A stretch of 64,000 bases of DNA from Accumulibacter sp. (GTDB lineage: Bacteria; Pseudomonadota; Gammaproteobacteria; Burkholderiales; Rhodocyclaceae). Made by a program: the position numbers and the translations under genes. Of this stretch, positions 4,542 to 50,159 are shown piece after piece. The stretch lies in contig JACKLX010000002.1 in NCBI GenBank assembly GCA_024235695.1, positions 124,001-188,000 on the forward strand, written 5' to 3'. The stretch's first letter is position 1. Each line of letters starts with the position of its first letter. Below the pieces are notes generated by a model. It searched no databases and was not told the origin of the DNA. It was given only the letters and a program-made list of their open reading frames with translations.

Positions 4542-5036
4542 CTACTGCTTCTCGGCCGCCTCTGCTTGGCTGCTGTCAGGCGCTTCCAGGGGCAGCTGCA
4601 ACTGCCCTCGCTGCATGACGAAGTCGCGCACGGCGATGTTGATCGTCGTCGCGATGTCGCTGCGCAAGTTGCTGGTGGCGTCGCGCAATGAGGCCTCGAT
4701 CAAGGCCGGCAATTCGGCGGCCAGATGGCGGTCGAGCAATTCGGCAAGACTGGCGGCGAGTGCCGGGCGCAGGTTGGCGGCGATGCTGTCGATGCTTTCC
4801 TCCGGGGCGGGTTGCTCGGCAACGACCACCTCGGTAAGCAACGGCAAGTCATCTTCCTCGCCGCTCCGGCGGGTGAACCGCGTTGGGCCGTCGGGCGTAT
4901 CCGATACCGCCGCCGCCAGAAAGCTGCGCCGCCGGCGGCTTGGCCGCGGGTTCTTTCGGCGCTCGCCGAGCGTCGTGCCGGCCTCGGGTTTGATCAGCGA
5001 GTCGGCCCGGCTGAGCAGATCCTTGTCGTCGGCCAT
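4542..5036 (-). CDS. Hypothetical protein, DUF2486-like, between holC and valS
   Basis: A 164-residue protein. The ATG at 5036 shares one base with the holC stop (TGATG), so translation is probably coupled. The N-terminal half is basic and looks disordered (RRKNPRPSRRRR), followed by an acidic DDLPLLTEVVV segment. The C-terminal half is an amphipathic helical region with LRPALAASLAELLDRHLAAEL. The D-P-L-L-T-E-V motif and the position between holC and valS match the uncharacterised DUF2486 family of betaproteobacteria, by memory of the family and without a profile search. No function is known. A longer upstream extension would run entirely inside holC and is not needed. Confidence 0.75.
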   Translation of the reverse strand: MADDKDLLSRADSLIKPEAGTTLGERRKNPRPSRRRRSFLAAAVSDTPDGPTRFTRRSGEEDDLPLLTEVVVAEQPAPEESIDSIAANLRPALAASLAELLDRHLAAELPALIEASLRDATSNLRSDIATTINIAVRDFVMQRGQLQLPLEAPDSSQAEAAEKQ

Positions 5037-5461
5037 CAGCCGTTCCCCGCGCAATCGACATACCTGACGTCGTAGCCGCGATCCTTGTAGAAGCGGGCAC
5101 GTTGACGGCCGTCGGCACGCTCCTCGTCGCCTTGTCCGACGACTTCGATCAGACTGGTAAAGCGGGCAAAGCCTGGCGGTACGTCGCTGGCGAGGTTGAA
5201 CAGCCGCTCGTCGTGCGGCACCGAGTCGAGCTTGCTGGCGATCAACACCGGCGTTTCGTCGGCGAGCGGCGAGTTGACATCGACGTGCGGGACGAAGCCC
5301 GTCGGCGGTTGCGTCCACAGCTGGCGGTCGAGGGCAGCCGCAAGCTGCGCATCCGGCGCATAGACCAGCAAGGCCTTCTTCTGGGCGAAGGCCTTGCCGA
5401 TCAAGGCCGCGGTTGTGCGCACCCGATCCGGTGCGTTGTGATAGAAGAAGATCTGCGTCAC
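5036..5461 (-). CDS. holC: DNA polymerase III chi subunit
   Basis: A 141-residue HolC, the chi subunit of the clamp-loader complex, which links the replisome to single-stranded DNA-binding protein. The start MTQIFFYHNAPDR, the KKALLVYA strand and the PVLIASKLDSVPHDERLFNLASDVPPGF region are typical of the family. Translation starts at GTG (5461), overlapping the pepA stop by four bases (GTGA). The 3' end shares a base with the next gene. The order pepA-holC-valS is conserved in proteobacteria. Confidence 0.95.
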   Translation of the reverse strand: MTQIFFYHNAPDRVRTTAALIGKAFAQKKALLVYAPDAQLAAALDRQLWTQPPTGFVPHVDVNSPLADETPVLIASKLDSVPHDERLFNLASDVPPGFARFTSLIEVVGQGDEERADGRQRARFYKDRGYDVRYVDCAGNG

Positions 5462-6954
5462 CTGAGTTTCCCGCCGCGTTTCAGCAGGTAATGCATCAAC
5501 AAGGGCACCGGTCGTCCGGTGGCGCCCTTGTCGGCGCCAGACTTCCAGGCCGTGCCCGCGATGTCGAGGTGTGCCCAGACGTACTTCTTGGTGAAACGGG
5601 CGAGAAAGCAGGCGGCGGTGATGCTGCCGCCCCAGCGGCCACCGATGTTTGCCATGTCGGCGAAGGGGCTCTTGAGCAGTTCCTGATAGTCGTTCCAGAG
5701 CGGCATCTGCCAGGCGCGGTCGTGCGCTTCGTCACCGGCGTTCAGCAATTCCCTTGCCAGCGCATCGTTATTGGCGAAGAGACCGCTGGCGACATGGCCA
5801 AGGGCGATCACGCAGGCGCCGGTGAGGGTGGCGACGTCGATCACCGTGTCGGGTTCGAAGCGGGCGGCGTAGGTCAGCGCGTCGCACAGAATCAGGCGGC
5901 CTTCAGCGTCGGTATTGAGGATTTCGATGGTCTGCCCGGACATTGAGGTGACGATGTCGCCGGGCCGACTGGCGCCGCCGCCAGGCATGTTCTCGGTGCT
6001 CGGAACGACCACGGTCAGGTTGATTGGCAGCTTCAACAGCGCCGTCGCCTTGAGGGTGCCGAGGACGGTCGCCGCGCCGCACATGTCGTACTTCATCTCG
6101 TCCATCTCCGGCGCCGGCTTCAGCGAGATGCCGCCGGTGTCGAAGGTGACTCCCTTGCCGACCAGCAGCACCGGTTTTTCATCGCCCTTGCCGCCCTTGT
6201 ACTGCAGGACAATCAGCTTTGGATCCTGGTGCGAGCCCTTGGCAACGGAAAGCAGCGAGTGCATGCCCAGCGCCGCCATCTCGTCGCGTTCGATGACCTG
6301 GCAATCGATCTTGTGGTCTGCCGCGATCTTCAACGCAGTTTCCGCGAGATGGCCCGGGGTGCATACATTGCCGGGCAGGTTGGCGAGGTCCATGGCCAGC
6401 GCCATGCCTTCGGCTATCGCCTGCCCTTCGCTCAGCGCTTGTTCGGCGGCCGCCAGTTCGTTCCGGCGATCGACGACAAAGGTGAGCTTGCGCAGCGGCC
6501 GGCGGACCTTGTCCTTCTTGCTCTTGAACTGATCGAAGCGATAGACGGTCTGCTCGGCAACGATCGCCGCTTGCCGCACTCGCCAGGCCGCGCTGCGCTT
6601 GCGGACATTGGTTTCGGTCAGGAAGACCGTGCCGTCGAACGAGCCGGTCTCGTTCAGCGTCCTCACCGCACTGCGAACGGCGTCGCAATACTCCCGGTCG
6701 CCAAACTCCTTCTCCTTGCCCAGCCCGACCAGCAGCACCCGATCGCAGAGCGTTCCGGGGACATTGTGCAACAACAGCGTCGAGCCTGCCTTGCCCTCCA
6801 TGTCGCCGCGGCGAACGATGTCGGAAAGATGGCTGCGCGCCGCGTTGTCGATGAGTTCGGCGGCCAGTGTCAGCTTGCGCGGCTCGAAAACGCCGACCAC
6901 CACGCAGGCGCTGCGCTGCTTTTCCGGGCTGCCGCTTTTTATGCTAAATTCCAC
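5458..6954 (-). CDS. pepA: Leucyl aminopeptidase (cytosol aminopeptidase, M17)
   Basis: A 498-residue M17 metallopeptidase that removes N-terminal residues from peptides. In some bacteria it is also a DNA-binding accessory factor. The metal-binding and active-site signature NTDAEGRL is present, with GKGVTFDTGGISLKP and the glycine-rich MPGGGASRPGD. The start is GTG at 6954, placed by a strong Shine-Dalgarno (GGAGGGTGA) directly upstream. Length is normal. It is the first gene of the leftward pepA-holC-DUF-valS operon and is divergent from lptF across 73 bp. Confidence 0.97.
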   Translation of the reverse strand: MEFSIKSGSPEKQRSACVVVGVFEPRKLTLAAELIDNAARSHLSDIVRRGDMEGKAGSTLLLHNVPGTLCDRVLLVGLGKEKEFGDREYCDAVRSAVRTLNETGSFDGTVFLTETNVRKRSAAWRVRQAAIVAEQTVYRFDQFKSKKDKVRRPLRKLTFVVDRRNELAAAEQALSEGQAIAEGMALAMDLANLPGNVCTPGHLAETALKIAADHKIDCQVIERDEMAALGMHSLLSVAKGSHQDPKLIVLQYKGGKGDEKPVLLVGKGVTFDTGGISLKPAPEMDEMKYDMCGAATVLGTLKATALLKLPINLTVVVPSTENMPGGGASRPGDIVTSMSGQTIEILNTDAEGRLILCDALTYAARFEPDTVIDVATLTGACVIALGHVASGLFANNDALARELLNAGDEAHDRAWQMPLWNDYQELLKSPFADMANIGGRWGGSITAACFLARFTKKYVWAHLDIAGTAWKSGADKGATGRPVPLLMHYLLKRGGKLR

Positions 6955-6994
6955 TCACCCTCCTCAGGACCGGCGCGTTTCTTGCGAAGCGCCG

Positions 6995-7024
6995 ATTATC
7001 ACTGCAGTTTTTCACCAAAGTCAA
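6995..7024 (-). promoter_or_regulatory. Sigma70-type promoter for pepA
   Basis: On the minus strand a TTGACT hexamer (7024-7019) is followed, after an 18-bp spacer, by GATAAT (7000-6995). This is close to the sigma70 consensus and sits about 40 bp upstream of the pepA Shine-Dalgarno in the pepA/lptF divergent gap. Confidence 0.6.
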
Positions 7025-7027
7025 AGC

Positions 7028-8107
7028 ATGATCTTTCAGCGCGCCGCCCGACGCGAGTTTGCCCACTCGACTGCCGGCGTTTTCACCGCGCTTTTCGCGA
7101 TCATGGTGACCACGCAGCTGATTCGCCTGCTGAACGAGGCCGCCCAGGGCAGTGTTGACGCGGGCGCGGTGGCTGCCCTGCTCGGCTTCGCGGCGCTCAA
7201 TTATCTCCCGCCGCTGTTGTCGCTGTCCTTGTTTGTCGCCATCCTGCTGTCGCTATCGCGGAGTTACCGCGACTCCGAGATGGTGGTCTGGTTCTCGTCC
7301 GGACTGTCGCTCACGGCCTGGATGCGACCGGTCCTGACCTTCGCCCTGCCGCTGGTCGTAACCATCGCCGCGCTTTCGCTCTTCCTGTCACCCTGGGCCT
7401 TGTCGCAGAGTGCCGAGTTTCGCGGCAAGCTGAGCAACCGCAAGGACGCCGGCCAGGTCGCGCCCGGCAGGTTCCAGGAATCGTCCTCCGGCGATCGGGT
7501 GATCTTTGTTGAAGGAGTCGCCGATGATACCAGCCATGTACGCAACGTGTTTGTCAATGAACTTCAGCCTGACCGCCTCGGCGTCACGATGGCCGGTACA
7601 GGCCATCAGGAGATAGCGGACAACGGCGACCGCTTCATCGTCTTGCAGGATGGTCGCCGCTACGAACTGGAGCCGGGCACGGCGAAATTCCGCATTCTGG
7701 AATATGCGCGCTACGCCGTTCGCCTGGAAACCAAAGAGGCGCGCGGCATAGAGCGGACTCCCAAGAACATGCCCCTGGTCGAGTTGCTGCAAGTCGACCT
7801 GCCGGTCTATCGGGCCGAGTTGCTGTGGCGTCTCGGGATGCCGCTTTCGGCCATCGTGCTGGTCCTGCTGGCGATCCCGCTTGCCTTTGTCAATCCGCGA
7901 GCCGGGCGCTCGGCGAACATGCTGCTCGCCATTCTGGTGTACGTGCTCTACAACAACCTGCTGACCATCAGCGAGGGCTGGGTGGCCAGCGGCAGGCTGT
8001 CGTTCGCTGTCGGACTGCTGGCGGCCCACCTGCTGATGCTCTTTCTCCTGCCGCTGATGTTCTACCACCGAATTGCCGTATCGTCGTTCCGGCGCCTGTC
8101 ACGATGA
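7028..8107 (+). CDS. lptF: LPS export ABC transporter permease LptF
   Basis: A 359-residue inner-membrane permease of the YjgP/YjgQ family. With LptG and the LptB ATPase it extracts lipopolysaccharide from the inner membrane. It has the family layout: two-three N-terminal membrane helices (residues about 10-110), a periplasmic beta-jellyroll domain containing RVIFVEGV and NGDRFIVLQDGRRYE, then three C-terminal helices. The ATG at 7028 begins MIFQRAARREF, the expected N-terminus. Longer in-frame starts would lie inside divergent pepA. It overlaps lptG by four bases (ATGA). Confidence 0.96.
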   Translation: MIFQRAARREFAHSTAGVFTALFAIMVTTQLIRLLNEAAQGSVDAGAVAALLGFAALNYLPPLLSLSLFVAILLSLSRSYRDSEMVVWFSSGLSLTAWMRPVLTFALPLVVTIAALSLFLSPWALSQSAEFRGKLSNRKDAGQVAPGRFQESSSGDRVIFVEGVADDTSHVRNVFVNELQPDRLGVTMAGTGHQEIADNGDRFIVLQDGRRYELEPGTAKFRILEYARYAVRLETKEARGIERTPKNMPLVELLQVDLPVYRAELLWRLGMPLSAIVLVLLAIPLAFVNPRAGRSANMLLAILVYVLYNNLLTISEGWVASGRLSFAVGLLAAHLLMLFLLPLMFYHRIAVSSFRRLSR

Positions 8108-9177
8108 AGATCTATCGTCGTTATATCGCGCGCGAGGTGGTCGGCGGCGTCCTGCTGGTGTTGCTGGCATTTCTCGCCCTGTTTGCCTTCTTCGACATGC
8201 TCGGCGAGATCAACAACGTCGGCCAGGGAGGCTACCGGCTGCACCACGCCTTCGGCTTCGTCCTGCTGCGCGTCCCGGGGCGGGTCTATGAACTGATGCC
8301 GATTGCCGTTCTGATCGGTACGCTCTACGCCTTGTCTTCCCTGGCCAGACATTCCGAGATCACCGTCCTGCGGGTTTCCGGGATGTCGTCGCTGGCCTTG
8401 TTGCTCGGATTGTTCCAGGTGGCGGGCGCTTTCGCCGTGGCGACTTTCCTGATCGGCGAGTACGTCGCGCCGCCGGCCGAGCGGGCTGCCAATGAGCTGC
8501 GTCTGAAGGAACGCGGCAGGATGGTCGGACAGGACCTGCGTTCGGGACTCTGGGTCAAGGATGAACGCAGTTTCATCAATGTGCGTGTGGTGCTACCGGA
8601 TACGCGTTTGCGCGGCATCCGCATCTACGACTTCGACCCGGATGCGCGCTTGCGCTCGCTCACCGAAGCCGAGGCGGGTGAGTATGTTTTTCCCGACAGC
8701 TGGCGCCTGACCGGCGTGGTCCAGACAACCCTGCATGCCGACCGTTCGGAAGTACGGAGAATGCCCGAGTTCGTCTGGCGCTCGGCGCTGAACCCGGACA
8801 TTCTGGCGGTCCTGATGGTCGCTCCCGATCGCATGTCCTTGCGACACCTGTCGGCCTACACCAAGCACCTGTCAGAGAATCGTCAGACCACCAATCGCTA
8901 CGACATCGCTTTCTGGAAGAAGGTGGTCTACCCGCTGGCGGCGTTCGTGATGGTTGCGCTGGCGGTGCCGTTCGGTGGCGCTCATTACCGGGCGGATGGC
9001 GTCGGCCTCAAGATCTTCGCCGGGGTGATGGTTGGAATCCTGTTCCATATGCTCAACGGCTTGTTCGCGAATCTCGGCGCAATCAACAGCTGGTCGCCGG
9101 TGCTCAGTGCCGTGACGCCATCGGCCTTGTTCCTGGTGGCGGCGATCGCCATGGTTTGGTGGGTGGAGCGGCGCTAG
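8104..9177 (+). CDS. lptG: LPS export ABC transporter permease LptG
   Basis: A 357-residue partner of LptF. The N-terminus MKIYRRYIAREV, a helix with FFDMLGEI, the RVSGMSS coupling-helix region, a periplasmic jellyroll and three C-terminal helices ending in VWWVERR match LptG. The start codon overlaps the lptF stop (ATGA), consistent with stoichiometric expression. The gene ends against the convergent RDD gene, with the two 3' ends overlapping by four bases. Confidence 0.96.
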   Translation: MKIYRRYIAREVVGGVLLVLLAFLALFAFFDMLGEINNVGQGGYRLHHAFGFVLLRVPGRVYELMPIAVLIGTLYALSSLARHSEITVLRVSGMSSLALLLGLFQVAGAFAVATFLIGEYVAPPAERAANELRLKERGRMVGQDLRSGLWVKDERSFINVRVVLPDTRLRGIRIYDFDPDARLRSLTEAEAGEYVFPDSWRLTGVVQTTLHADRSEVRRMPEFVWRSALNPDILAVLMVAPDRMSLRHLSAYTKHLSENRQTTNRYDIAFWKKVVYPLAAFVMVALAVPFGGAHYRADGVGLKIFAGVMVGILFHMLNGLFANLGAINSWSPVLSAVTPSALFLVAAIAMVWWVERR

Positions 9178-9599
9178 TCCATTACCAGCTGTGTGCCGGC
9201 CAGGCGGTCGTGCAGGAACAGCCGGTCGCGGTCGAGCAGTGCCCAGATGATTCCGGCGCCGCCGAAGACGATACTGGGCCAGCATAGCAGGTAGCGCAAG
9301 AGAGCCTGCGCCGGACGGACGGCGAGTCCGTCTCGCGTCACCAGTCGGATGTGCCAGGTCTTCATGGCCAGCGTTTGCCGACCATTGCTCCAGAACCAGA
9401 GGCAATAGATCAGCATTACAAGGAAACCATGAGCCTGCACGATGACTGGCGCCGCCAGGCGATGGGCGAGGGCGCCCAGCAGCAGGTGGGGCAGAATCAG
9501 CAGTACGGCCAGCACGCCAAGCAACAGCAAGGACTCGTAGAGCATGCTGGCCAGGCGGCGGACGATGCTCGGCCGCCTGAACGGTTCCGACGCCGGCAT
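9174..9599 (-). CDS. RDD-family membrane protein
   Basis: A 141-residue protein with the RDD layout: an N-terminal RRLASMLYE segment, hydrophobic helices at about residues 18-40 and 60-75, the central KTWHIRLVTRDG strand, and a C-terminal DRDRLFLHDRLAGTQLV motif with the conserved aspartates. The ATG at 9599 shares one base with the preceding stop (TGATG). Function is unknown; some RDD proteins carry cations. It is the last gene of the sigma factor-DUF3619-DUF3106-RDD module. Confidence 0.88.
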   Translation of the reverse strand: MPASEPFRRPSIVRRLASMLYESLLLLGVLAVLLILPHLLLGALAHRLAAPVIVQAHGFLVMLIYCLWFWSNGRQTLAMKTWHIRLVTRDGLAVRPAQALLRYLLCWPSIVFGGAGIIWALLDRDRLFLHDRLAGTQLVMD

Positions 9600-10183
9600 C
9601 AATCCCTGGCGTCCGCTGCACTGGCGGGCGAGGCTCCCGGGGTGGTCGCCGGTGGCGGACGATGGATGCCAAGAGGCAGGAGGGCGGAAGAGCTGGTATT
9701 CAGACCGCTTGGCGTGCTGCTGCTGGCCTGCCCCGGTTTGGGTGCGAGCTGTCTGGCAGCGAGTTGCTTGAGCCTTTCCTTTTCCTCTGCCGGCAGGCTG
9801 GAGTATTCCTCCCATTTCTGCCTGAGTTGCTGTTGCTTCTCGACCGGCAGCTTGTTGGCGGTGCGGAAGTTCTCGCGCGCCACGCGCCGCTGTTCGGGCG
9901 TCAGTTTTCCCCAGACCACCATCTGCTCCTGAATTCGCCGTTGCTCTTGCGGCGTCATGTTGAAGAAGCGCCGCGTGATACCCAGCCATTTCTTCTGGCG
10001 GGCATAGTCCATGGCATCCCAGTCATAGCCCAGCGGCGCCAGGATGACCTTCTGTTCGACCGTCAGTTCACTCCATTGCGGTTGGGCCGGGGTCGCAATT
10101 GCAGACGGGCTGAGCACGTCTGCCCAGCCCGTAGCGGCGACAAGACTACTGAGGATTACTGCGATGCGGAGCTTTTCAGCCAT
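9599..10183 (-). CDS. Exported DUF3106 protein
   Basis: A 194-residue protein with a probable signal peptide (residues 1-21, ending near ATGWADV). A helical, Arg/Gln/Glu-rich region follows, with PLGYDWDAMDYARQKKWL and repeated MTPQEQRRIQEQM and LTPEQRRVARENF units. This looks like DUF3106, which resembles periplasmic Spy/CpxP-type helical proteins. The C-terminal 50 residues are Pro/Ser/Ala-rich and probably disordered. It overlaps the upstream DUF3619 gene by 28 bp and the downstream RDD gene by one base. Its partner or stress signal is unknown. Confidence 0.85.
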   Translation of the reverse strand: MAEKLRIAVILSSLVAATGWADVLSPSAIATPAQPQWSELTVEQKVILAPLGYDWDAMDYARQKKWLGITRRFFNMTPQEQRRIQEQMVVWGKLTPEQRRVARENFRTANKLPVEKQQQLRQKWEEYSSLPAEEKERLKQLAARQLAPKPGQASSSTPSGLNTSSSALLPLGIHRPPPATTPGASPASAADARD

Positions 10184-10533
10184 GCATCAAAGCCCCGGTC
10201 GGTGAGTGCAGCGATCGGCAGGTCGCCGGCCAGAAGAGCGCTGTCGATGGCCTCCAGTTCGGCGATGCTCTGGTCCGCCTGCCAGTAGGTGTAGGAGGCG
10301 ACGCCGACAACCAGCATCAAAGCCGCGATCACCTGCTTGAAGCGGGCGTTTTCCCACTGATCGTTGAGGAAACCGCCCGCTGCGGCGAGTACCGACTGGT
10401 GGGCGACGACTTTCTGCCGGGCCAGCGCCCGCTGCCTGGCGGCTTCCAGGCGCGCGTGCGTCGCCGGGGGCAGTTCGTGCAGTCCGCGGTTGAGGTGTTG
10501 CCGTGCCTTGTAGGCAAAATGCAGTTCATTCAT
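10156..10533 (-). CDS. DUF3619 single-pass membrane protein, possible anti-sigma partner
   Basis: A 125-residue protein with the DUF3619 N-terminus (MNELHFAYKARQHLNRGL), a cytoplasmic helical half, one membrane helix near residues 68-84 (FKQVIAALMLVVGVASY) and a short periplasmic tail. The start codon overlaps the sigma-factor stop (ATGA). A small single-pass protein encoded directly after a sigma factor is the usual position of an anti-sigma factor. That role is inferred from context only; no known anti-sigma fold was recognised. Confidence 0.82.
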   Translation of the reverse strand: MNELHFAYKARQHLNRGLHELPPATHARLEAARQRALARQKVVAHQSVLAAAGGFLNDQWENARFKQVIAALMLVVGVASYTYWQADQSIAELEAIDSALLAGDLPIAALTDRGFDAWLKSSASQ

Positions 10534-11237
10534 AGGGTCACTCCCTTTGCTTTCAGTGCCGCCGCCAGAGCGTGATTCGCACGAGAGCAGTGTGTCTTGA
10601 CGCTGCCCTCCGAGCAGCCCATGACCGTAGCCGTTTCAGCAACGTCCATATCCTCCCAGTAACGCAGCAGAAACGCTTCCCGTTGACGTCCAGGCAGCAA
10701 TTCTATCTCTTTCTCGATCATCGCCAGGACTTGTGCCTGCTCGAACTGGCCATGCGGCGTATTCGGCACATTGGACCCCGTTTCGCCACTGATCGTTTCC
10801 AGCGGATCGTGATCCTCGTCATCGCCAGGGGAAAGCGCCGACAGCAGCGTGGTCCATAGCGAGCGCACCTTGCTGCGCCGGTAATAGTCGCGGATGGTGT
10901 TCTGCAGGATCCGCTGGAACAACATCGGCAGTTCGGTCGGTGGACGGTCGCCGTACTTTTCAGCGAGCTTCATCATCGAGTCCTGAACGATATCCAGCGC
11001 GGACTCTTCGTTGCGCACCGCGAACATCGCTTGCTTGAACGCACGGCGTTCGACTGCTGCGAGAAAGTCTGACAGTTCGCGTTGGCTGGCCAGAGCGGGA
11101 ATCCTTGCTGTAGCCGGACGCGGAGCTGCGGTTTCCGGCGGCGGTTTTGTGTGAATGCCTTGACCAATCCAAGTCGAAGCTTTAACGTTGCAGACTTTTT
11201 TCGAGCAATTTGCTTGCTGGGGCGACGGTAATGACAA
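10530..11237 (-). CDS. RNA polymerase sigma factor, ECF-like
   Basis: A sigma-70 family factor with region 2 (FKQAMFAVRNEESALDIVQDSMMKLAEKY, in pieces) and region 4 (LLPGRQREAFLLRYWEDMDVAETATVMGCSEGSVKTH). The start is unresolved. The frame opens at TTG 11237, seven bases inside ilvB. Recognisable homology begins only at ASQRELSDFL, about residue 50, where a CTG codon at 11093 sits eight bases after an AGGA. No ATG or GTG lies between. The coordinates given are therefore the longest form, and the true protein may be about 187 residues. It heads the DUF3619-DUF3106-RDD module, divergent from ilvB. Confidence 0.85.
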   Translation of the reverse strand: MSLPSPQQANCSKKVCNVKASTWIGQGIHTKPPPETAAPRPATARIPALASQRELSDFLAAVERRAFKQAMFAVRNEESALDIVQDSMMKLAEKYGDRPPTELPMLFQRILQNTIRDYYRRSKVRSLWTTLLSALSPGDDEDHDPLETISGETGSNVPNTPHGQFEQAQVLAMIEKEIELLPGRQREAFLLRYWEDMDVAETATVMGCSEGSVKTHCSRANHALAAALKAKGVTL

Positions 11238-12943
11238 TGATGACCGGTGCGGAGATTGTAATCAGGTGCCTGCAGGAAGAAAAGGTCGACTACGTATTCG
11301 GCTATCCGGGTGGTGCAGTCCTTCATCTCTACGATGCGTTGTTCAAGCAGGACCAGGTCAAGCACGTACTGGTGCGCCACGAGCAGGCCGCCGTACACGC
11401 GGCCGACGGCCTGGCGCGTTCGACGACCAAGGTCGGTGTGGCTCTGGTTACCTCGGGTCCTGGCGCGACCAATGCCGTCACCGGTATTGCCACCGCCTAC
11501 ATGGACTCGATTCCCCTGGTGATCATCTCGGGGCAGGTGCCGACCGAATACATCGGCCAGGATGCCTTCCAGGAGTGCGATACCGTAGGCATTACCCGGC
11601 CGTGCGTGAAGCATAATTTTCTGGTTAACGACGTGCACAATCTGGCGCTGACCTTGAAGAAAGCGTTCTATATCGCCAACAGCGGTCGGCCGGGGCCGGT
11701 GGTGATCGACATTCCGAAGGATATTACGGCGGCGAAGTGCAGGTTCGAGTATCCGGAGACCATTCAGCTGCGTTCGTATAATCCGGTGGTCAAGGGCCAT
11801 CTGGGCCAGATCAAGAAAGCGGTTCATCTGCTGCTCGAGGCCAAGCGGCCGATGATCTACACCGGTGGTGGCGTCATCCTTTCCAACGGTTCGGAGCAAC
11901 TGACCAGACTCACCCGTCGGCTGGGCTTCCCGATTACCAATACCCTGATGGGGCTGGGATCCTATCCGGCGACCGACCGCCAGTTCCTCGGCATGCCGGG
12001 GATGCACGGCACCGTCGAGGCCAACCTGGCGATGCAGCACTGCGACGTGCTGCTGGCCATCGGTGCGCGTTTCGACGACCGGGTGATCGGTAATCCGATG
12101 AACTTCACCAGCCTGCCGCGCAAGATCATCCATGTCGATATCGACCCCTCGTCGATTTCCAAGCGGGTCAAGGTTGATGTGCCGATCGTCGGCAACGTCC
12201 CTGACGTCCTCGAGGAAATGCTCAAGCTGCTCGAGTCGGGCAATGCCGGTCCGGATGCCGAGGTGCTCGCCGGCTGGTGGAAGCAGATCGAAGAGTGGCG
12301 TGGCAAGCAGTGCATGAAGTACCGGATGAAGAAGAGCGTCATCATGCCGCAGTACGTCATTGAAAAATTGTACGAGGTCACCGGCGGCAAGGCGATCGTC
12401 ACTTCCGACGTTGGCCAGCACCAGATGTGGGCAGCACAATACTACAAGTTCGACCAGCCACGTCGCTGGCTCAACTCCGGCGGTCTCGGCACCATGGGGG
12501 TCGGCCTGCCTTACGCCATGGGGGCGTCGTTGGCGAACCCGGACATGCCGGTCGTTTGTGTCACCGGCGAGGGTTCGATCCAGATGTGCATCCAGGAGCT
12601 GTCAACCGCCAAGCAGTTTCGTCTGCCGATCAAGATCATCAATCTCAACAACCGCTACCTTGGCATGGTCCGCCAGTGGCAGGAGATGTTCTATGGCAGT
12701 CGCTACTCGGAGTCGTACATGGATTCACTGCCCGACTTCGTCAAGCTCGCCGAGGCCTACGGTCACGTAGGTATCCGTGTCGAGCGACCGGAGGACGTCG
12801 AGCCGGCGCTGAAGAAGGCCTTCGTCGACCACAAGGACGATCTGGTATTCATCGATTTCATCACCGATCAGAAGGCGAACGTCTTTCCGATGGTGGCAGC
12901 CGGCAAGGGCCTGGCGGACATGATCCTGACCGAAGATCTGTAA
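11231..12943 (+). CDS. ilvB: Acetolactate synthase large subunit
   Basis: A 570-residue thiamine-diphosphate enzyme that makes acetolactate or acetohydroxybutyrate, the first common step of Val/Leu/Ile synthesis. It has the N-terminal pyrimidine-binding domain (YVFGYPGGAVLHLYDAL, and HEQAAVHAADGLARS with the catalytic glutamate), a central FAD-type domain, and a C-terminal ThDP/Mg motif running from GEGSIQMC to NLNN. The ATG at 11231 is chosen over a TTG seven codons upstream. It starts the ilvBHC run, followed after 12 bp by its regulatory subunit. Confidence 0.97.
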   Translation: MTMMTGAEIVIRCLQEEKVDYVFGYPGGAVLHLYDALFKQDQVKHVLVRHEQAAVHAADGLARSTTKVGVALVTSGPGATNAVTGIATAYMDSIPLVIISGQVPTEYIGQDAFQECDTVGITRPCVKHNFLVNDVHNLALTLKKAFYIANSGRPGPVVIDIPKDITAAKCRFEYPETIQLRSYNPVVKGHLGQIKKAVHLLLEAKRPMIYTGGGVILSNGSEQLTRLTRRLGFPITNTLMGLGSYPATDRQFLGMPGMHGTVEANLAMQHCDVLLAIGARFDDRVIGNPMNFTSLPRKIIHVDIDPSSISKRVKVDVPIVGNVPDVLEEMLKLLESGNAGPDAEVLAGWWKQIEEWRGKQCMKYRMKKSVIMPQYVIEKLYEVTGGKAIVTSDVGQHQMWAAQYYKFDQPRRWLNSGGLGTMGVGLPYAMGASLANPDMPVVCVTGEGSIQMCIQELSTAKQFRLPIKIINLNNRYLGMVRQWQEMFYGSRYSESYMDSLPDFVKLAEAYGHVGIRVERPEDVEPALKKAFVDHKDDLVFIDFITDQKANVFPMVAAGKGLADMILTEDL

Positions 12944-12955
12944 GGGAAAGACAAG

Positions 12956-14493
<1,538 letters not shown>

Positions 14494-14564
14494 TCGAACA
14501 CAGGGCTTGCCGCGGCGAGGTGCGACCTCCTCCGCGCGCGAGCCCGCTCGCATCCCACAGCGCA

Positions 14565-15335
14565 ATGCCCGATATCAAGCCTCGCAAGACCCTTTTCAAC
14601 CCCGAGTTGCGGCGTCGCGGCATCTATCTGCTGCCCAACCTGTTCACCACCGCCGCCCTGTTCTGCGGATTTTTCGCCATCGTCAAGGCGATGACCGGCA
14701 GCTTCGAACAGGCCGCCGAGGCGATCTTCGTGGCCATGGTGCTCGATGGCCTCGATGGCCGGGTGGCGCGGATGACTCGCACGCAAAGCGCTTTCGGAGC
14801 GGAGTACGACTCGCTGTCGGACATGGTCTCCTTCGGTGTCGCACCGGCTCTGGTGACTTACGCCTGGGCGCTCAAGGACATGGGGCGACTCGGCTGGATC
14901 GCCGCCTTCATCTATTGCGTCGGGGCTGCCCTGCGCCTGGCGCGTTTCAATACCACGCTGGAAGTTGTCGACAAGCGCTACTTCCAGGGTCTGCCAAGCC
15001 CTGCCGCGGCGGCGCTGGTGGCCGGTTTCCTGTGGGTGATGATCGACAAGGACGTCGCTGCCGGCAACGTTCGCTGGCTGGCCTGCGCGCTGGTGATGTT
15101 CGCCGGCATCTCGATGGTGACCAATATCCAGTTCTACAGTTTCAAGGACGTCAATCTTCGCCGTAGCGTACCGTTTATCTTCGTCGTCGCCATTGCACTC
15201 GCATTTGCCGTGCTCTCGTACGATACGCCGGTGGCCCTTTTCGGCCTGTTTGTCGCCTATGCGCTGTCGGGCTACGTGCTGGCGCTGATGCGCCGTATCC
15301 GGCGCAAGGCGCCGCCGGCGCCGCCGCCGGCCTAG
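14565..15335 (+). CDS. pssA: CDP-diacylglycerol--serine O-phosphatidyltransferase
   Basis: A 256-residue polytopic membrane enzyme that makes phosphatidylserine, the precursor of phosphatidylethanolamine. The CDP-alcohol phosphotransferase signature DG-x2-AR-x8-G-x3-D-x3-D is present (DGLDGRVAR through EYDSLSD, about residues 65-87). At least six hydrophobic helices follow, and the tail is Pro/Ala-rich. The ATG at 14565 (MPDIKPRKTLFNPE) is preferred over an in-frame start 45 bp upstream because it gives the standard N-terminus. pssA between ilvC and leuA is a known betaproteobacterial order. Confidence 0.95.
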   Translation: MPDIKPRKTLFNPELRRRGIYLLPNLFTTAALFCGFFAIVKAMTGSFEQAAEAIFVAMVLDGLDGRVARMTRTQSAFGAEYDSLSDMVSFGVAPALVTYAWALKDMGRLGWIAAFIYCVGAALRLARFNTTLEVVDKRYFQGLPSPAAAALVAGFLWVMIDKDVAAGNVRWLACALVMFAGISMVTNIQFYSFKDVNLRRSVPFIFVVAIALAFAVLSYDTPVALFGLFVAYALSGYVLALMRRIRRKAPPAPPPA

Positions 15336-15616
15336 CCGGTGCCGAATGCTGGCCAGGAGGCGTGCGCCGGGGAGGTCGAAGCGGTGGCGGTTGCCGTTCG
15401 GTTCATTGACACGAAGTCTCGAAACTGTCTTGCCGTTCTTGTGCGCCTCTTCAATTCTGGCGGATATTCAGACGCGAATCCTGTATCTTTGCCAGCACGG
15501 TCGCGGCGCTGCGAGCGCCCGAAGACATCCTCCCACCGCCGCAGTTTCGGTCGGTAGGCCAGCATACAGGGGGCGCAGCGGCCGGCTATTCGCATGCTTA
15601 GCACCGGAGTCAGGAC

Positions 15617-17155
15617 ATGAAAGAACATCTCGTAATTTTCGACACGACGCTGCGCGATGGCGAACAAAGCCCAGGCGCTTCGATGACCAGGGACGAAAAG
15701 CTGCGCGTTGCGCGGCAACTCGAGCGAATGCGCGTCGACGTGATCGAAGCCGGTTTCGCCGCCGCATCACCCGGCGACTTCGACGCCATCAAGTCGATCG
15801 CGTCGGTGATCCGGGAGTCCGCGGTGTGTTCGCTTGCCCGTTCGAACGAGAATGATATCCGCCGTGCGGGAGAAGCGATCGCCCCGGCTGCGCGTGGCCG
15901 CATACATACCTTCATCGCTACCAGTCCGATTCACATGGAAAAGAAGCTGCGGATGACGCCTGATCAGGTGGTCGAATCGGCGGTGCGGGCAGTGCACTGG
16001 GCGCGCGAACATACCGACGACGTGGAGTTCTCGGCCGAGGACGCAGTACGTTCGGACGTCGATTTCCTCTGTCTGATCTTTGCCGAGGTGATCAAGGCCG
16101 GTGCCCGGACGATCAATGTTCCCGATACGGTGGGCTACAGCGTTCCCTCGGTCTGGGGCGATCTGATGCGCACGCTGATCGAGCGGGTGCCCGGATCCGA
16201 GCAGGTGGTGTGGTCGACGCATTGCCACAACGACCTGGGGATGGCAGTTGCCAATTCGCTGTCGGCGGTATTGGCCGGCGCGCGTCAGGTCGAATGCACG
16301 ATCAATGGCCTTGGCGAGCGGGCCGGGAACGCTTCACTCGAAGAAGTCGTGATGGCGGTCCGGACGCGTGGCGATCTCTTTCCTGTCGAGACGCGCATCG
16401 ATACGACGCAGATCGTGCCAGCCTCCAAACTGGTGTCGCAGATCACCGGCTATCCGGTCCAGCCCAACAAGGCCGTTGTCGGCGCCAACGCTTTTGCGCA
16501 CGAATCGGGAATTCATCAGGACGGCGTGCTCAAGCACCGCGAGACCTACGAAATCATGCGTGCCGAGGACGTTGGCTGGGCGCAGAACAAGCTGGTGCTG
16601 GGAAAACACTCGGGACGCAATGCCTTCAAGTCGCGGTTGGCGGCGTTGGCTATCGTGCTGGACAGCGAAGAGGCACTGAACGCGGCCTTTGCCCGTTTCA
16701 AGGAACTGGCCGACAAGAAGCACGAGATCTTTGACGAAGACCTGCAGGCCCTGGTTTCCGATGAAGAACTTGCCCAGGATGGCGAGTACTACAAGCTGGT
16801 CTACTCACGGGTGTGTTCGGAAACCGGCGAGACGCCTGCGGCCGACGTGACGCTTACCGTCGACGGTGCCGAGAAGAAGGCCTCGGGGGTTGGCAGTGGT
16901 CCCGTCGATGCGACCTTCAAGGCGATCGAGTCGGTTGCCGCCAGTGGCGCCCAATTGCTGCTCTATTCGGTCAACGCGATCACCACCGGTACCGACGCGC
17001 AGGGTGAAGTGACCGTACGCCTCGGCAAGTGCGGTCGGATCGTCAATGGCAACGGTGCGGACACCGATATCGTCATCGCATCGGCGAAAGCATATCTCAA
17101 TGCCCTGAACAAATTGCAGGCCCCCGATCGGCTGGATCCGCAGGCGGACGTCTGA
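15617..17155 (+). CDS. leuA: 2-isopropylmalate synthase
   Basis: A 512-residue enzyme that condenses acetyl-CoA and 2-ketoisovalerate, the first committed step of leucine synthesis. The N-terminal TIM barrel carries [13 protein letters not shown] (residues 8-20) and the metal-binding [13 protein letters not shown]. The C-terminal regulatory LeuA dimer domain runs from about residue 390 and is expected to mediate leucine feedback. It is separated from pssA by 281 bp, which hold no gene I can support. A TTGACA at 15406-15411 lacks a good -10 box, so the promoter is unresolved. No leucine-rich leader peptide was seen. Confidence 0.97.
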
Positions 17156-44925: not shown

Positions 44926-45033
44926 ACGTGTGGCGGCCACGGCGGCGGTCATCGCGCGTATCCACCGTGATTGGCAAGCGCCGCCAGGCCACTCGCGGAC
45001 CTGACCCCATGCGTGCCTGAAGGTGCTGCCGTG

Positions 45034-45822
45034 ATGCTGATTGACACCCACTGCCATCTCGCTGCCGCCGAATTCGCCACCGATCGCCATCTTCTGGCGC
45101 CGGCGGCAAGGGCCGCCGGTGTGGCGGCGATGGTCGTTCCGGCCGTCGACATCGCCAGCCTCGCCGAGGTGCACGCATGCTGCGTACGCCATCCGGGATG
45201 TGCCGCGGCGTACGGCATTCATCCGCTGTTCGTCGGGCCGGCCGGCGAAAGCGATCTCGAGACCTTGCGCGGCCATCTTGAGCAAGCCCTGGCGGGGCCG
45301 CTTCGACCGGTCGCCGTCGGCGAGATCGGGCTCGACTTCTTCGTCGCCGACGCGGCCGTCGAGCGACAGGAGCATTTTTTCGTCGAACAACTCAAGATCG
45401 CCCGGGATACCGACCTGCCGGTGCTCCTGCACGTCCGTCGTGCGGTCGACCAGGTGCTCAAGAACCTGCGCCGGATCAAGGTCAGGGGCGGTATCGCACA
45501 TGCCTTCAACGGCAGTCGTCAACAAGCCGAAGAGTTCATCAAGCTCGGTTTCAAGCTGGGTTTCGGCGGCGCCCTGAGTTATTCCGGGTCGACACGGATC
45601 CGCCGGCTGGCCGCAGAATTGCCGCTGGCGTCGATCGTCCTCGAGACCGACGCGCCCGACATGCCGCCGGCCTGGATCGCCGGCAGCCGCAATACACCGC
45701 TGCAGTTGCCGCGAATCAACGAGGTGCTGGCGGCCTTGCGCGGTATCGACGCGGGCGTGTTGGCGAGTGCCACCTCGGCGAACGCGCTGGCCGTACTTCC
45801 CGAGTTGCGTTTGCCCGAGTGA
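45034..45822 (+). CDS. tatD: TatD-family metal-dependent hydrolase (DNase)
   Basis: A 262-residue TIM-barrel hydrolase of the TatD family with the metal motif DTHCHL at residues 4-9, AYGIHPLFVG, GEIGLDFF, HAFNGSRQQAEEFI and LETDAPDMPP. Members are nucleases involved in DNA repair or degradation. The ATG at 45034 gives the standard MLIDTHCHL start. The 108-bp gap to dadA holds nothing recognised. Confidence 0.92.
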   Translation: MLIDTHCHLAAAEFATDRHLLAPAARAAGVAAMVVPAVDIASLAEVHACCVRHPGCAAAYGIHPLFVGPAGESDLETLRGHLEQALAGPLRPVAVGEIGLDFFVADAAVERQEHFFVEQLKIARDTDLPVLLHVRRAVDQVLKNLRRIKVRGGIAHAFNGSRQQAEEFIKLGFKLGFGGALSYSGSTRIRRLAAELPLASIVLETDAPDMPPAWIAGSRNTPLQLPRINEVLAALRGIDAGVLASATSANALAVLPELRLPE

Positions 45823-45890
45823 TCGGGTACGTTACCGCCTGACGGCTTCGGGCTTCCGATTTTCCGAATGGGCGAGCAGCGGGCCAGCAA

Positions 45891-46763
45891 ATGAGCAGAG
45901 CATGGGACAGCTCCCTATCCGAAGCGCGCAAGCTCGATGCGCAAGCGACGGTCACGGTTGCCGATCTCGCAGGATTTCTTGCTGAAGACAACCATTGGCA
46001 TCCTCACAACATGAAAAACCACCTGGATCGACCGGCGGCTACCTGCGTGGCCGTCAAGGAAACCGTGCCCGCCGTACCGCACTATCTGCAGGCACATTAC
46101 TGGTGGGCCTACGTCCATCCGCGTGCCGTGCATGTCTTCGAGCGGCAATGGCTGGTCAACCTCATTCTCTGGGGTAACTACAAGCGTTTGTGCAATGCGG
46201 TACTGCACGATTACGGTCATGACCTGCCCGGGCGTACGCTGCAGATCGCTTGCGCCTACGGTGATCTGACCTCGCGACTGGTCAACTGCGTGGCTCCCGG
46301 CGGGTCGCTGGAAGTCGTCGATATCCTGCCGATCCAGCTCGACAATCTCGCCGGCAAGTTGCCGGCGGATGCGCCGATCAAGCTGCACTGCATGGATTCT
46401 GCGGCGCTTGCCTTTGCCGACGAGAGTTTCGACCGGGCGTTGTTGTTCTTCCTGTTGCACGAACAGCCGCAGGCCGTGCGCGAGCGGACGCTGGCAGAGG
46501 CTCTGCGGGTGGTGCGTCCGGGCGGCACGCTGACCATCGTCGACTATGCGCCGCCCAATCGATTCAACCCCTTGCGCTATTTCTGGAAGCCGGTCCTCGA
46601 TCGCCTGGAGCCGTTCGCGCACGACCTCTTCAGCGAGGAAGTCGCGGCCTGGTTACCGAAGGATGGCGCGCACCGTACGGTCAGCAAGCAAAGCTTCTTT
46701 GGTGGCATGTATCAGATATTGACGCTCGAAATCGTCGATCCGAGCAAAGGGTCGACTGGCTGA
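45891..46763 (+). CDS. rquA: Rhodoquinone biosynthesis methyltransferase-like protein RquA
   Basis: A 290-residue SAM-dependent methyltransferase-fold protein. The N-terminal block PHYLQAHYWWAY (63-74), then HPRAVHVFERQWLVNLILWGN, is what I recognise as the RquA hallmark. The class I fold follows, with a degenerate SAM motif I, LQIACAYGD (117-125), VVDILPIQLDNL, and LRVVRPGGTLTIVDYAPP. RquA converts ubiquinone to rhodoquinone, exchanging a methoxy for an amino group (established for the family). The first 40 residues look family-specific or dispensable, and an ATG at 46011 is an alternative start. It lies 100 bp before frdA. Confidence 0.88.
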   Translation: MSRAWDSSLSEARKLDAQATVTVADLAGFLAEDNHWHPHNMKNHLDRPAATCVAVKETVPAVPHYLQAHYWWAYVHPRAVHVFERQWLVNLILWGNYKRLCNAVLHDYGHDLPGRTLQIACAYGDLTSRLVNCVAPGGSLEVVDILPIQLDNLAGKLPADAPIKLHCMDSAALAFADESFDRALLFFLLHEQPQAVRERTLAEALRVVRPGGTLTIVDYAPPNRFNPLRYFWKPVLDRLEPFAHDLFSEEVAAWLPKDGAHRTVSKQSFFGGMYQILTLEIVDPSKGSTG

Positions 46764-46765
46764 CG

Positions 46766-46780
46766 AGCCGATTATCGGCT
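46766..46780. repeat. 15-bp palindrome between rquA and frdA
   Basis: AGCCGATTATCGGCT is a perfect inverted repeat (7+1+7) three bases after the rquA stop and 84 bp before frdA. It could be an operator half-site pair or a minimal RNA hairpin (6-bp stem, TTA loop). There is no T-run. It does not match an FNR box. Confidence 0.35.
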
Positions 46781-46863
46781 GGTCCCGTCGGAGCGCCAGC
46801 TCGGCCGGGGCTTCTCGGATGTTGGTCGTGACCGGCGCTGGCCGGCGCGAGAAAGGACGAAGC

Positions 46864-48651
46864 ATGGAGAGTTACAAGGCAGACGTCGTGATCGTCGGCG
46901 GCGGCGGGGCGGGCTTGCGGGCGGCAATCGCCGTCGCGGAATCCGACCCGGCGCTGAGGATCGCGCTGGTCTCGAAGGTCTATCCGATGCGCAGTCACAC
47001 CGTCGCCGCCGAAGGCGGCTCGGCGGGGGTGAAACTGCCCACGGACAGCCTCGAATACCATTTCAACGACACCGTCGGCGGTGGCGACTGGTTGTGCGAG
47101 CAGGACGTGGTCGAGTACTTCGTTGCCCATTGCAACGAGGAGTTGACCCAACTGGAGCACTGGGGTTGTCCGTGGAGTCGCACGCCGGACGGCCATGTCA
47201 ATGTCCGCGCTTTCGGCGGCATGAAGATCGAGCGCACCTGGTTTGCCGCCGACAAGACCGGCTTCCACATGCTGCACACGCTGTTTCAGACGTCGATCAA
47301 GTATCCCTCGATCAAGCGTTTCGATGAGCATTTCTGTGTCGACCTGGTGGTCGATGATGGTCGCGTGCAGGGCGTGGTCGCGATCGAGATCGGCTCGGGC
47401 GAGTTCACCCTGGTCGAGGGCCGGTCGGTGGTCATCGCCACCGGCGGCGCTGGCCGGGTGTTTCGCGAGAACACCAATGGCGGCGTCGTCACCGGCGACG
47501 GCATGGCGCTGGCGTACCGGCACGGCGTGCCGCTGCGTGACATGGAATTCGTCCAGTATCACCCGACCTGCATGCCCGGCACCGGCCTGCTTTTCACCGA
47601 GGCGTGTCGTGGTGAGGGCGGCTTTCTGGTTAACAAGGACGGCTATCGCTACCTGCAGGATTACGGCCTTGGCCCGGCCGAGCCGTCACCGCGCAACAAG
47701 GCGATGGAACTCGGGCCGCGTGACCGGCTGAGCCAGGCCTTCTGGTACGAGCAGCAGAAGGGGCGCACCATCGAAGGGCCGCACGGTTCGGTCGTCCATC
47801 TCGACCTGCGGCACCTCGGTGAAGCCAAGTTGCGCGAGCGCCTGCCGCAGATCTACGAGCTTGCCGAGCAGTTCCTCGGCGTCGATCCGGCGCGCGCACC
47901 GATCCCGGTGCGGCCGGCGGTGCATTACACCATGGGCGGCATCCTGGTCGACGGTCTCTGCGCGTCGCCCTTGCCCGGCCTCTACGCGGCTGGCGAATGT
48001 TCCAGTGTCGGCATCCATGGCGCCAACCGCCTGGGCTCCAACTCATTGTCCGAGCTCTGCGTTTTCGGCAAGGTCGCCGGCGTCGAAGCCGCCCGCTTTG
48101 CCAAGGCGGCAGCGCCGGGCAATTCGGCCACCCTGCTCAAGCAGGCACAGGCGGTCGAGCAACGCGTTCTCGGCGTCAAGCAGAACACCGGCGGCAACGA
48201 ACGGATCGCGACGCTGCGCAAGGAAATGGCGCAGACCATGGAAGACGGCTGCGGCATCTATCGCCTCGCCGAAACGATGCAGGCGACTTGCGACAAGCTC
48301 GACGAACTCAAGGAGCGCTTCAAGCGGGTGAACGTCGAGGACAAGTCGAGCGTCTGGAATACCGAGTGGCTCCTCGCCATCGAACTCGAGTACCAGATCG
48401 ACGTCGCGCAGAGCATGGCCTATTCGGCGCTCAATCGACGCGAGTCGCGTGGCGCCCACCAGCGCCTCGACGGTTTCGAGAAGCGCGACGACGAGAACTT
48501 CCTGCAACACTCGCAGGCGCACTATGTCGCTGGCGGCCCGCCGCGCATCGACTACGGCCCGGTCAAGATCACCAAGTCGCCGCCGGGCACGCGCGCTTAC
48601 GGTGCCGCAGGCGAAAAGGCAGAGCAGGAAAGGAAGGCATCTCATGGCTGA
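46864..48651 (+). CDS. frdA: Fumarate reductase flavoprotein subunit
   Basis: A 595-residue flavoprotein of the quinol:fumarate reductase group, reducing fumarate to succinate. The FAD motif is [14 protein letters not shown] near the N-terminus, and the flavin-linking His is in [66 protein letters not shown] and [13 protein letters not shown] closely follow enterobacterial FrdA rather than SdhA. The ATG at 46864 has an AAAGGA upstream. The next gene overlaps by eight bases. Confidence 0.95.
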
Positions 48652-49399
48652 GAATCAGAGAACGATTGAAATCGAGGTCCTGCGCTACCACCCGGAAAAG
48701 GACAAGGCGCCGTACCAGCAGGTGTTCCAGGTGCCGTTTACCGACGACATGTCGGTATTGCAGGGCGTGCAATACATCAAGGACTACCTCGACGGTTCGC
48801 TGAGCTTTCGCTGGTCGTGCCGGATGGCCATTTGCGGCAGTTGCGGAATGATGATCAACGGCAAACCCAGCCTGTCGTGCGAAACCTTCCTGCGCGACTA
48901 CTATCCGGCGCGGGTGCGCGTCGAAGCGCTGGCGCATTTCCCGATCGAGCGCGACCTGGTGATCAACATGGAAGGCTTCATCGAGAAGCTCGAGAGCATC
49001 CAGCCGTACATCATCCCCAGGGAAGCGCGCACGCTGGCCCAGGGTGAATACCTGCAGACGCCGGAACAGCTGAACGTTTACGAGCAGTTCAGTTCGTGCA
49101 TCAACTGCATGTTGTGCTACGCCGCATGTCCGCAGTTCGGGCTCAACCCGGCGTTCATCGGACCGGGAGCAATGGCCTTGCTGCATCGCTACAACGTCGA
49201 TTCGCGCGACGGCGGCAAGGCCGAGCGCATGGAGCTGGTCGCTTCGGAAGAGGGCGTCTTCCACTGCACGGCAGTTGGCTACTGCTCCGAGGTTTGCCCC
49301 AAGCACGTCGACCCGGCCAACGCCGTCAACCAGAACAAGACCAACGCCGCGGCCGACTATTTCCTGCGTTTCCTTGCCCCGAAGGGAGGTGCCAAGTGA
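48644..49399 (+). CDS. frdB: Fumarate reductase iron-sulfur subunit
   Basis: A 251-residue subunit with all three clusters: [2Fe-2S] Cys59/64/67/79 ([10 protein letters not shown]...C), [4Fe-4S] Cys152/155/158 (CINCMLC) and [3Fe-4S] from Cys162, 208, 214 and 218 ([17 protein letters not shown]). It carries electrons from the membrane quinol site to FrdA. The [17 protein letters not shown] segment is the Frd rather than Sdh form. It overlaps frdA by eight bases and frdC by four (GTGA). Confidence 0.96.
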
Positions 49400-49794
49400 A
49401 CAAGCGTCGTCCCTATGTTCGTTCGATGGACGGGTGGTGGCGGAAGAACCCGTTCTTCGTCGAGTACATGATCCACGAGGGCACCGCCCTGTTCGTCGCG
49501 GCCTACGCCGGCATCCTGCTCAACGGGCTGCTGCACCTGTCGCGGGGCGAGGCGGCCTGGAATGCCTGGCTAGACGGGCTCAAGAACCCGTGGTATGTCG
49601 CCTTCCACATGCTGGCGCTGGTTGCCATCGGCTATCACACCTACACCTGGTTCAAGATCATGCCGCGGACGATGCCGCCGGTTATCGTTGGCGGCAAGCG
49701 GCTCGCAGACGGCGCGATCACCGGCGGCGGCCTGGCCGTTGCCGCCGCCGCCAGTCTTGCCCTGCTCGCCGCAGTCTGGGGGATGGCGCGATGA
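49396..49794 (+). CDS. frdC: Fumarate reductase membrane subunit C
   Basis: A 132-residue membrane anchor with three helices (about residues 26-48, 64-83 and 106-128). It starts [20 protein letters not shown], aligning with E. coli FrdC. Glu28 in MIHEGTAL corresponds to the FrdC glutamate known to be important for quinol oxidation. The GTG at 49396 has GGGAGGT upstream and overlaps the frdB stop. No heme ligands are expected in this type. Confidence 0.94.
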
Positions 49795-50159
49795 AAGCGA
49801 TACGGAAACGTTCCAACGCACCGATTTTCTGGGCGCTGTTCGGGGCCGGCGGCATGCTGTCGGCGCTGCTCGGCCCGATGCTGGTGTTCATTACCGGCAT
49901 TGCCGTGCCGCTTGGCCTCTTGCTGCCGGCGGACACCATGAGCTACGCGAACATGCTGGCCTTTTCCCAGAACCTGATCGGCAAGGGTTTCATCTTCGCC
50001 GTCATCGCGCTCTTTCTGTGGCATGCGGCACACCGCATCTTCCACAGCCTGCACGACATCGGCATTCACGCCGGTACGGCAGCCAAGCTGATCTGCTACG
50101 GCGGCGCGATGCTGGGAACGCTGATCGCCGCGTACGCCTTGCTGGCGATCGGTTTCTAG
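49791..50159 (+). CDS. frdD: Fumarate reductase membrane subunit D
   Basis: A 122-residue second membrane anchor with three helices. KRSNAPIFWALFGAGGMLSALLGPM, LSLAFSQ-type NMLAFSQNLIGKGF, and LWHAAHRIFHSLHDIGIH align with E. coli FrdD. The start overlaps the frdC stop (ATGA). It completes a full frdABCD operon. Confidence 0.94.
   Translation: MKAIRKRSNAPIFWALFGAGGMLSALLGPMLVFITGIAVPLGLLLPADTMSYANMLAFSQNLIGKGFIFAVIALFLWHAAHRIFHSLHDIGIHAGTAAKLICYGGAMLGTLIAAYALLAIGF

Follow-up and report, generated by a model that had tools for sequence, protein, structure and literature searches.

Accumulibacter serves as the model for biological phosphorus removal, and how it balances its electrons under anaerobic conditions is an old question. 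One locus of Accumulibacter sp. (assembly GCA_024235695.1) raises a particular form of this question, namely which quinol feeds the fumarate reductase encoded by frdABCD when these genes directly follow rquA, the gene for rhodoquinone biosynthesis. The window analyzed here is a stretch of 64,000 nucleotides (contig JACKLX010000002.1, positions 124,001 to 188,000), and all coordinates given for it are positions within that stretch (Table 1). We consider it probable that rquA and frdABCD constitute a five-gene operon for rhodoquinol-driven fumarate reduction. In this scheme, RquA would convert ubiquinone to rhodoquinone, a low-potential quinone, complex I or other dehydrogenases would presumably reduce rhodoquinone to rhodoquinol, and a haem-less four-subunit quinol:fumarate reductase would oxidize rhodoquinol while reducing fumarate to succinate without oxygen. 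If a single transcript starts at a conserved element upstream of rquA, the supply of quinone would be coupled to that of the enzyme, a hairpin before frdA may adjust how stable the frd part of the message is or how well it is translated, and the reductase may itself be adapted to rhodoquinone at His27 of FrdC.

The first gene had been named rquA in an earlier note on this DNA, and model scores bear out that name. Its product scores far above the cut-off of 175 bits for NF038261, the NCBIfam RquA equivalog, whereas UbiE/MenG-type models give 25-37 bits; a UbiE/UbiG-type methyltransferase identity was ruled out on this basis (36.6 bits for the best UbiE-type model vs 279.7 bits). The start was set with the help of the 28 loci in which rquA and frdABCD are linked, which come from 26 genomes of the genus and from two further genomes (L035 and L036, described below). 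The ATG at 46011 is an ATG in 27 of these loci, L036 being the exception, and several relatives carry in-frame stops upstream of this position; therefore, rquA spans 46011-46763 and encodes 250 aa. A start at 45891 (290 aa) was ruled out, as the alignment with most relatives begins only near residue 40. Two aspartates of the window's RquA, Asp104 and Asp129, are 25 residues apart, the same spacing as that of D118 and D143 in R. rubrum RquA, a member of the same family, and the two proteins were compared by this spacing only. Replacement of D118 and D143 together abolished rhodoquinone synthesis (PMC9814641). In an alignment of 83 RquA sequences, the two Asp positions of the S-adenosylmethionine pocket are Asp in 83/83 and 79/83. 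It is established for the family that RquA swaps a methoxy group of ubiquinone for an amino group to give rhodoquinone (PMC9814641), and the window's gene is predicted from its sequence to encode such an enzyme. Among plasmid records, 24 matched RquA, none of them covering more than 80% of the query.

The claim of a complete frdABCD also held, since all four genes match family models. FrdC falls below the NCBIfam FrdC cut-off (96.6 vs 143 bits) but far above that of Pfam, and it is the only FrdC above cut-off in a profile search of the genome. Adjoining frd genes share a few bases at their ends, and the presence of four subunits, two of them membrane anchors, is the composition of a four-subunit quinol:fumarate reductase, which we take to be class D. 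Because the genome also has a complete sdhCDAB on a different contig, frdABCD is its second complex II. Among solved structures, FrdB, FrdC, and FrdD are matched best by chains of E. coli FrdABCD. The window's enzyme resembles the E. coli one (1KF6, 1L0V) in having four subunits and in retaining the FrdC Glu and Trp-Phe, the FrdB Lys, and the FrdD His-Arg positions, but it has His27 in FrdC where E. coli has Arg28, and Lys where E. coli has Glu after Trp-Phe. The gene order also differs, as frdABCD is followed by ampC in E. coli K-12, whereas the window has rquA in front. Thus, the description of these subunits as enterobacterial in type fits the four-subunit class and the FrdC glutamate, but not the histidine next to it.

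Table 1. Features of the rquA-frdABCD locus and its upstream neighbour in the window
Feature	Position	Strand	Evidence and remarks
rquA, rhodoquinone biosynthesis	46011..46763	+	250 aa; NF038261 279.7 bits; start from alignment of linked loci
frdA, fumarate reductase flavoprotein	46864..48651	+	NF006686 1047 bits (cut-off 854); TIGR01176 957 bits (cut-off 932.7)
frdB, iron-sulfur subunit	48644..49399	+	NF009051 418.8 bits (cut-off 333); E. coli FrdB 1kf6_B, E 3e-97
frdC, membrane anchor	49396..49794	+	GTG start; PF02300 148.3 bits (cut-off 24.2); aligned to 1kf6_C
frdD, membrane anchor	49791..50159	+	NF003977 150.4 bits (cut-off 60); 1kf6_D, E 3.1e-29
Promoter-like element	45805..45833	+	TTGCGT-N17-TACGTT; overlaps tatD end; match in 27/28 linked loci
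Hairpin directly before frdA ribosome-binding site	46827..46849	+	93.4% of cells paired, 26 sequences
tatD-type DNase gene, outside the cassette	44971..45822	+	PF01026, E 6.7e-56

The coordinates confirm that the rquA stop codon and the frdA ATG are separated by 100 bp on the same strand. The genome (3.83 Mb, 32 contigs, 83.7% complete) is one of a set of 28 Candidatus Accumulibacter genomes, and rquA scored above the cut-off in 26 of them (not in G201 and G209). All 26 of these rquA-positive genomes have the order tatD-rquA-frdA on one strand, so the survey of rquA-frdA adjacency that had been proposed as a check came out in favour of the pairing, and because the order is retained throughout, the pairing is more than chance. 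The genes are thus adjacent, on the same strand, and conserved across species, which are the marks of an rquA-complex II operon. The closest rquA relatives among named genomes are also Candidatus Accumulibacter and are the same genomes as those of the genus set; 23 of 25 named relative loci share their rquA with a genus genome and were not recounted, so that only L035 and L036 add to the count. In L035 (Dechloromonas sp. SSD3), rquA is followed by frdABCD, and in L036 (metagenome-assembled genome WH4.bin15), frdABCD is followed by rquA; tatD was found in neither locus. The contig breaks off inside frdA in L136, immediately past it in L145, and inside frdD in L144. In L139 (G204), both rquA and frdA contain frame breaks, which could be assembly errors. 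Of the two Accumulibacter genomes with no rquA detected, G201 is 93% complete and has MenD. After frdABCD, L035 carries genes resembling subunits of sodium-pumping methylmalonyl-CoA or malonate decarboxylases (12615-16415), all scoring under their cut-offs.

Two non-coding elements accompany these genes. The pattern TTGC(G/T)(T/C)-N17-TA(C/G)G(G/T)T, chosen after inspection of the alignment of the linked loci, occurs once upstream of rquA in all of them except L036. Its distance from the rquA ATG is 156 to 221 bases, or 40 bases in L147, and it is retained in L035 despite the lack of a detectable tatD there. The rquA leader of L147 (7847-8079) is about 165 bases shorter than that of most relatives. 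In the gap between rquA and frdA, a scan for terminator-like sites found none, and a hairpin precedes the frdA ribosome-binding site. Four of its seven pairs show changes on both sides, and of 500 shuffles, 0, 2, and 1 reached its values for pairing, two-sided pairs, and two-sided cells, respectively. Six versions of the hairpin slid along the alignment were paired in 22-55% of cells, as compared with 93.4% for the hairpin itself, and RNAalifold gave an energy of -5.87 with a small covariation term (-0.5). As evidence for an RNA spanning the rquA-frdA gap, the hairpin counts as weak to moderate, and together with the upstream element and the terminator-free gap, it indirectly suggests a single rquA-frdABCD transcript. 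An Rfam scan of the window returned nothing above the gathering score.

Several observations, apart from those taken up with the rival explanations below, weigh against the operon and its use of rhodoquinol. A generic sigma-70 scan found 0 promoters and does not call the element before rquA. An FNR-type scan (up to 2 mismatches) of the 330 bases before rquA and the rquA-frdA gap gave no site near this element in the window, the sole match, at -305, being rejected as it lies in tatD; in L035, an FNR-type match at -208 coincides with the promoter-like element. The hairpin counts and shuffles are uncorrected for kinship, and three of the six slid versions, with 27-55% of cells paired, also have four two-sided pairs. 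In a wider set of 199 genomes of the family, rquA was found in 61, 6 of them of the genus, and in the other 55 it was never beside frdABCD in the stretches examined, although some contigs are short (shortest 3.4 kb). In a tree of 83 RquA sequences made by a quick method, the 28 linked sequences group together with a Shimodaira-Hasegawa-like approximate likelihood ratio test (SH-aLRT) value of 99, and the link to frdABCD is thus confined to one RquA clade; the sequences nearest to this clade (G014, G127, G024, G085, and G062), 51-56% identical to the window's RquA, show no link in the stretches examined. Furthermore, two neighbouring U32-family genes, putatively those for UbiU and UbiV of the anaerobic, O2-independent ubiquinone route, are present in 27/28 genomes of the genus set but were not found in the window's 83.7%-complete genome, in which the single U32 match is TrhP.

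Outside the linked clade, rquA also occurs next to another kind of fumarate reductase. In L088 (G049, 4829-8989) and L114 (G030, 6661-10974), class-B frdCAB lies directly upstream of rquA. These clusters resemble the window in that rquA directly adjoins a quinol:fumarate reductase, but their enzymes have a single cytochrome-b anchor (341 and 371 bits, cut-off 187), rquA is downstream, and their RquA proteins are 37-38% identical to that of the window. The frdB and rquA frames of L088 overlap by 4 bases.

Across the family, rquA and FrdC occur together in 24/199 genomes (61 with rquA and 46 with FrdC; Fisher p 0.0005), and MenD and FrdC in 8/199 (p 1). For rquA with MenD the count is 5/199, fewer than expected (p 0.025), and none of these counts is corrected for kinship. 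Three FrdC matches of 21-25 bits had been dropped beforehand, one just above the cut-off (G155) and two below it (G020 and G042). The 46 FrdC genomes comprise a divergent clade of 17 and 29 genomes with the window's Frd type, of which 23 have rquA, 4 have MenD only, and 2 have neither. FrdA of the divergent clade (L162, L167, L184-L186, L188-L194, and L196-L200) is 58-60% identical to that of the window. For the futalosine route, no genome of the 199 passed the MqnC cut-off, and MqnC relatives below it were seen in 21 of them, none among the 6 genus genomes searched.

The quinone genes of the window's own genome complicate the choice of donor. It contains menD (433 bits, cut-off 244) with an adjoining isochorismate synthase gene, menF (270 bits, cut-off 225), next to these a menE-like ligase gene (262 bits, under the cut-off of 330), and elsewhere menA (175 bits, cut-off 102). 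Its menaquinone genes thus number at least four, and 12/28 genomes of the genus set have MenD. Since rquA and menaquinone genes were reported together in only 5 of 84 rquA genomes (PMC11707229), this genome is of the rarer kind. The search for menaquinone genes elsewhere in the genome, which the earlier note had proposed, thus came near to what that note would have counted as refutation, a full menaquinone pathway with separate transcription of rquA, the part of the pathway covered here being menF, menD, menE, and menA. The genome does not have the lack of menaquinone genes that marks a rhodoquinone-only anaerobe, and rhodoquinol is therefore not the sole possible donor; judging from these genes, menaquinol could feed Frd too. 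One could go further and suppose that menaquinol is the main donor, as in E. coli, and that the rhodoquinone made by the neighbouring gene serves other enzymes, and in accordance with this, A. phosphatis has been listed with the classical menaquinone pathway (PMC3914697). We regard this as unlikely, given that 16 of the 28 genus genomes have no MenD, that 15 of these 16 keep rquA, and that their FrdA is 89-96% identical to that of the window (14 read). Most of the 16 are drafts, in which the absence of MenD is uncertain, and G018 lacks MenD in an assembly of a single contig. Moreover, the only above-cut-off FrdC of the window's genome has the rquA-associated residue discussed below, as in 10/10 genomes that have both rquA and MenD. 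More than half of the genomes in the genus set probably have no low-potential quinone other than rhodoquinone, and rhodoquinol as the Frd donor is well supported for those without MenD. The statement that rhodoquinol is the donor, originally drawn from the adjacency, therefore fits the MenD-less genomes; for the window's genome, which has menaquinone genes, adjacency alone is insufficient, and there we infer rhodoquinone in the cells and rhodoquinol as the main donor.

Complex II-type enzymes can run in both directions, and the complex might accordingly work mainly as a succinate dehydrogenase with ubiquinone, as could be suggested by the divergent frdABCD clade, where rquA and MenD were each found in 1 of the 17 genomes. 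This seems very improbable for the window, as its Frd lies outside that clade, its genome has the separate sdhCDAB, and 27 of the 29 family genomes with the same Frd type have rquA or MenD.

If rhodoquinol is the main donor, the reductase may carry a trace of it. His27-Glu28 of the window's FrdC corresponds to Arg28-Glu29 of E. coli in the alignment to 1kf6_C, so that the Glu is retained and the Arg is replaced by His. E. coli Glu29 has been described as a proton shuttle, and for the matching Arg of mycobacterial FrdC, docking predicted ligand binding at this site (PMC5907181). In a survey of 65 FrdC rows (L035 being read from its DNA, and MenD not being searched in L035 and L036), His is found in 41/43 rquA-positive rows, including all those with both rquA and MenD, the window among them. 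Arg is found in 5/5 MenD-only genomes, one of which (G101) belongs to the divergent clade, in E. coli K-12, and in 15/17 rows with neither rquA nor MenD found, all 15 of the divergent clade.

We also scanned 914 alignment columns, comparing 40 rquA rows with four MenD-only genomes (G059, G109, G144, and G187) plus E. coli; G009 and L036 were excluded after their Arg had been seen, and L035 was dropped for FrdC. Nine columns have disjoint letters in the two groups (FrdC 23, 27, and 87; FrdB 147, 226, and 233; FrdA 304 and 453; FrdD 9), and FrdC 27 is the only one fixed in each, with Arg in the four MenD-only genomes and E. coli and His in 39/39. FrdC 87 comes next after the conserved Trp-Phe and FrdB 233 next after the conserved Lys, the Trp-Phe and the Lys being quinone-pocket residues. 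It is tempting to speculate that FrdC His27, with the nearby changes FrdC Glu23, FrdC Lys87, and FrdB Asn226, is a quinone-choice switch in which His would be tuned to rhodoquinol and Arg to menaquinol, one lineage with MenD and no rquA having gone back to Arg and strains with both gene sets keeping the rhodoquinol version, but we hold this only tentatively and think it rather doubtful as it stands.

A likelier account of the His27 pattern, and one that we think somewhat more probable than not, is shared ancestry only, in which case it would be uninformative on quinone choice. On a tree of FrdA plus FrdB made by a quick method, the FrdC site needs only 2 changes and rquA needs 5, and an independent-pairs test of the site had too few pairs. 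Exceptions occur on both sides: L036, with a linked rquA, and G009, an rquA-positive member of the divergent clade, have Arg, which also tells against an adaptation to rhodoquinol, and His is present in G035 (82% complete) and G156 (99% complete), in neither of which rquA or MenD was found. When L036 is kept in the column scan, FrdC 27 is lost and 6 columns are left, including FrdC 23; when both L036 and G009 are kept, 3 are left. On the other hand, the FrdC 27 result of the scan made without these two is unchanged when G101 is added, and the best FrdA-FrdB tree nests a trio of Arg-bearing MenD-only genomes within the His clade (SH-aLRT 89 and 91). A single clade of all His rows is not rejected (approximately unbiased test, p 0.42), and reversal to Arg in this trio was accordingly not upheld as an established event. 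The His/Arg pattern, which rests on one or two changes and has two exceptions among rquA-positive rows, is thus a lead and not proof of adaptation.

This lead is new, whereas the proximity of rquA to complex II genes is already in print. In many bacterial genomes, rquA lies no more than 15 genes away from genes of complex I, II, or III, an arrangement for which an operon has been suggested, and 12 genomes of that study encode a second frd/sdh set at another site (Stairs et al. 2018, PMC5953543). Hence, of the earlier view that the pairing is worth describing, what stands is that it is real and genus-wide, although it is not the first of its kind; compared with the systems in the available part of that study, rquA in Accumulibacter immediately adjoins frdABCD, throughout the genus, with conserved non-coding elements. 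Ca. Thiosymbion oneisti likewise has rquA and frdABCD, and rhodoquinone was proposed to stand in for its missing menaquinone, but it is a gammaproteobacterium for which linkage is not reported in the available text (PMC8269255), and part of Accumulibacter has menaquinone genes. Our literature search met no report of the FrdC residue pattern in the texts available (including PMC5907181 and PMC10238741), and no available text tying Accumulibacter to rhodoquinone. Transcription and role of frdABCD in Accumulibacter have been discussed in a paper whose main text, as available, is without rquA or quinone (PMC12604563), and another paper names frd for a relative and, as something separate, a 'novel quinol reductase' for the majority of Accumulibacter genomes (PMC4930944). 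Redox balance through succinate and propionyl-CoA, which the earlier note had put forward, is at present a supposition, and Accumulibacter is described as being without some genes of the methylmalonyl-CoA pathway (PMC12604563).

In summary, the pairing of rquA with frdABCD suggests how the Accumulibacter cell respires with fumarate once oxygen is exhausted. A second quinone pool would have to be included in models of its anaerobic phase if rhodoquinol drives Frd, and if position 27 of FrdC sets the choice of quinol, one residue would help to read the quinone of such an enzyme from its sequence.

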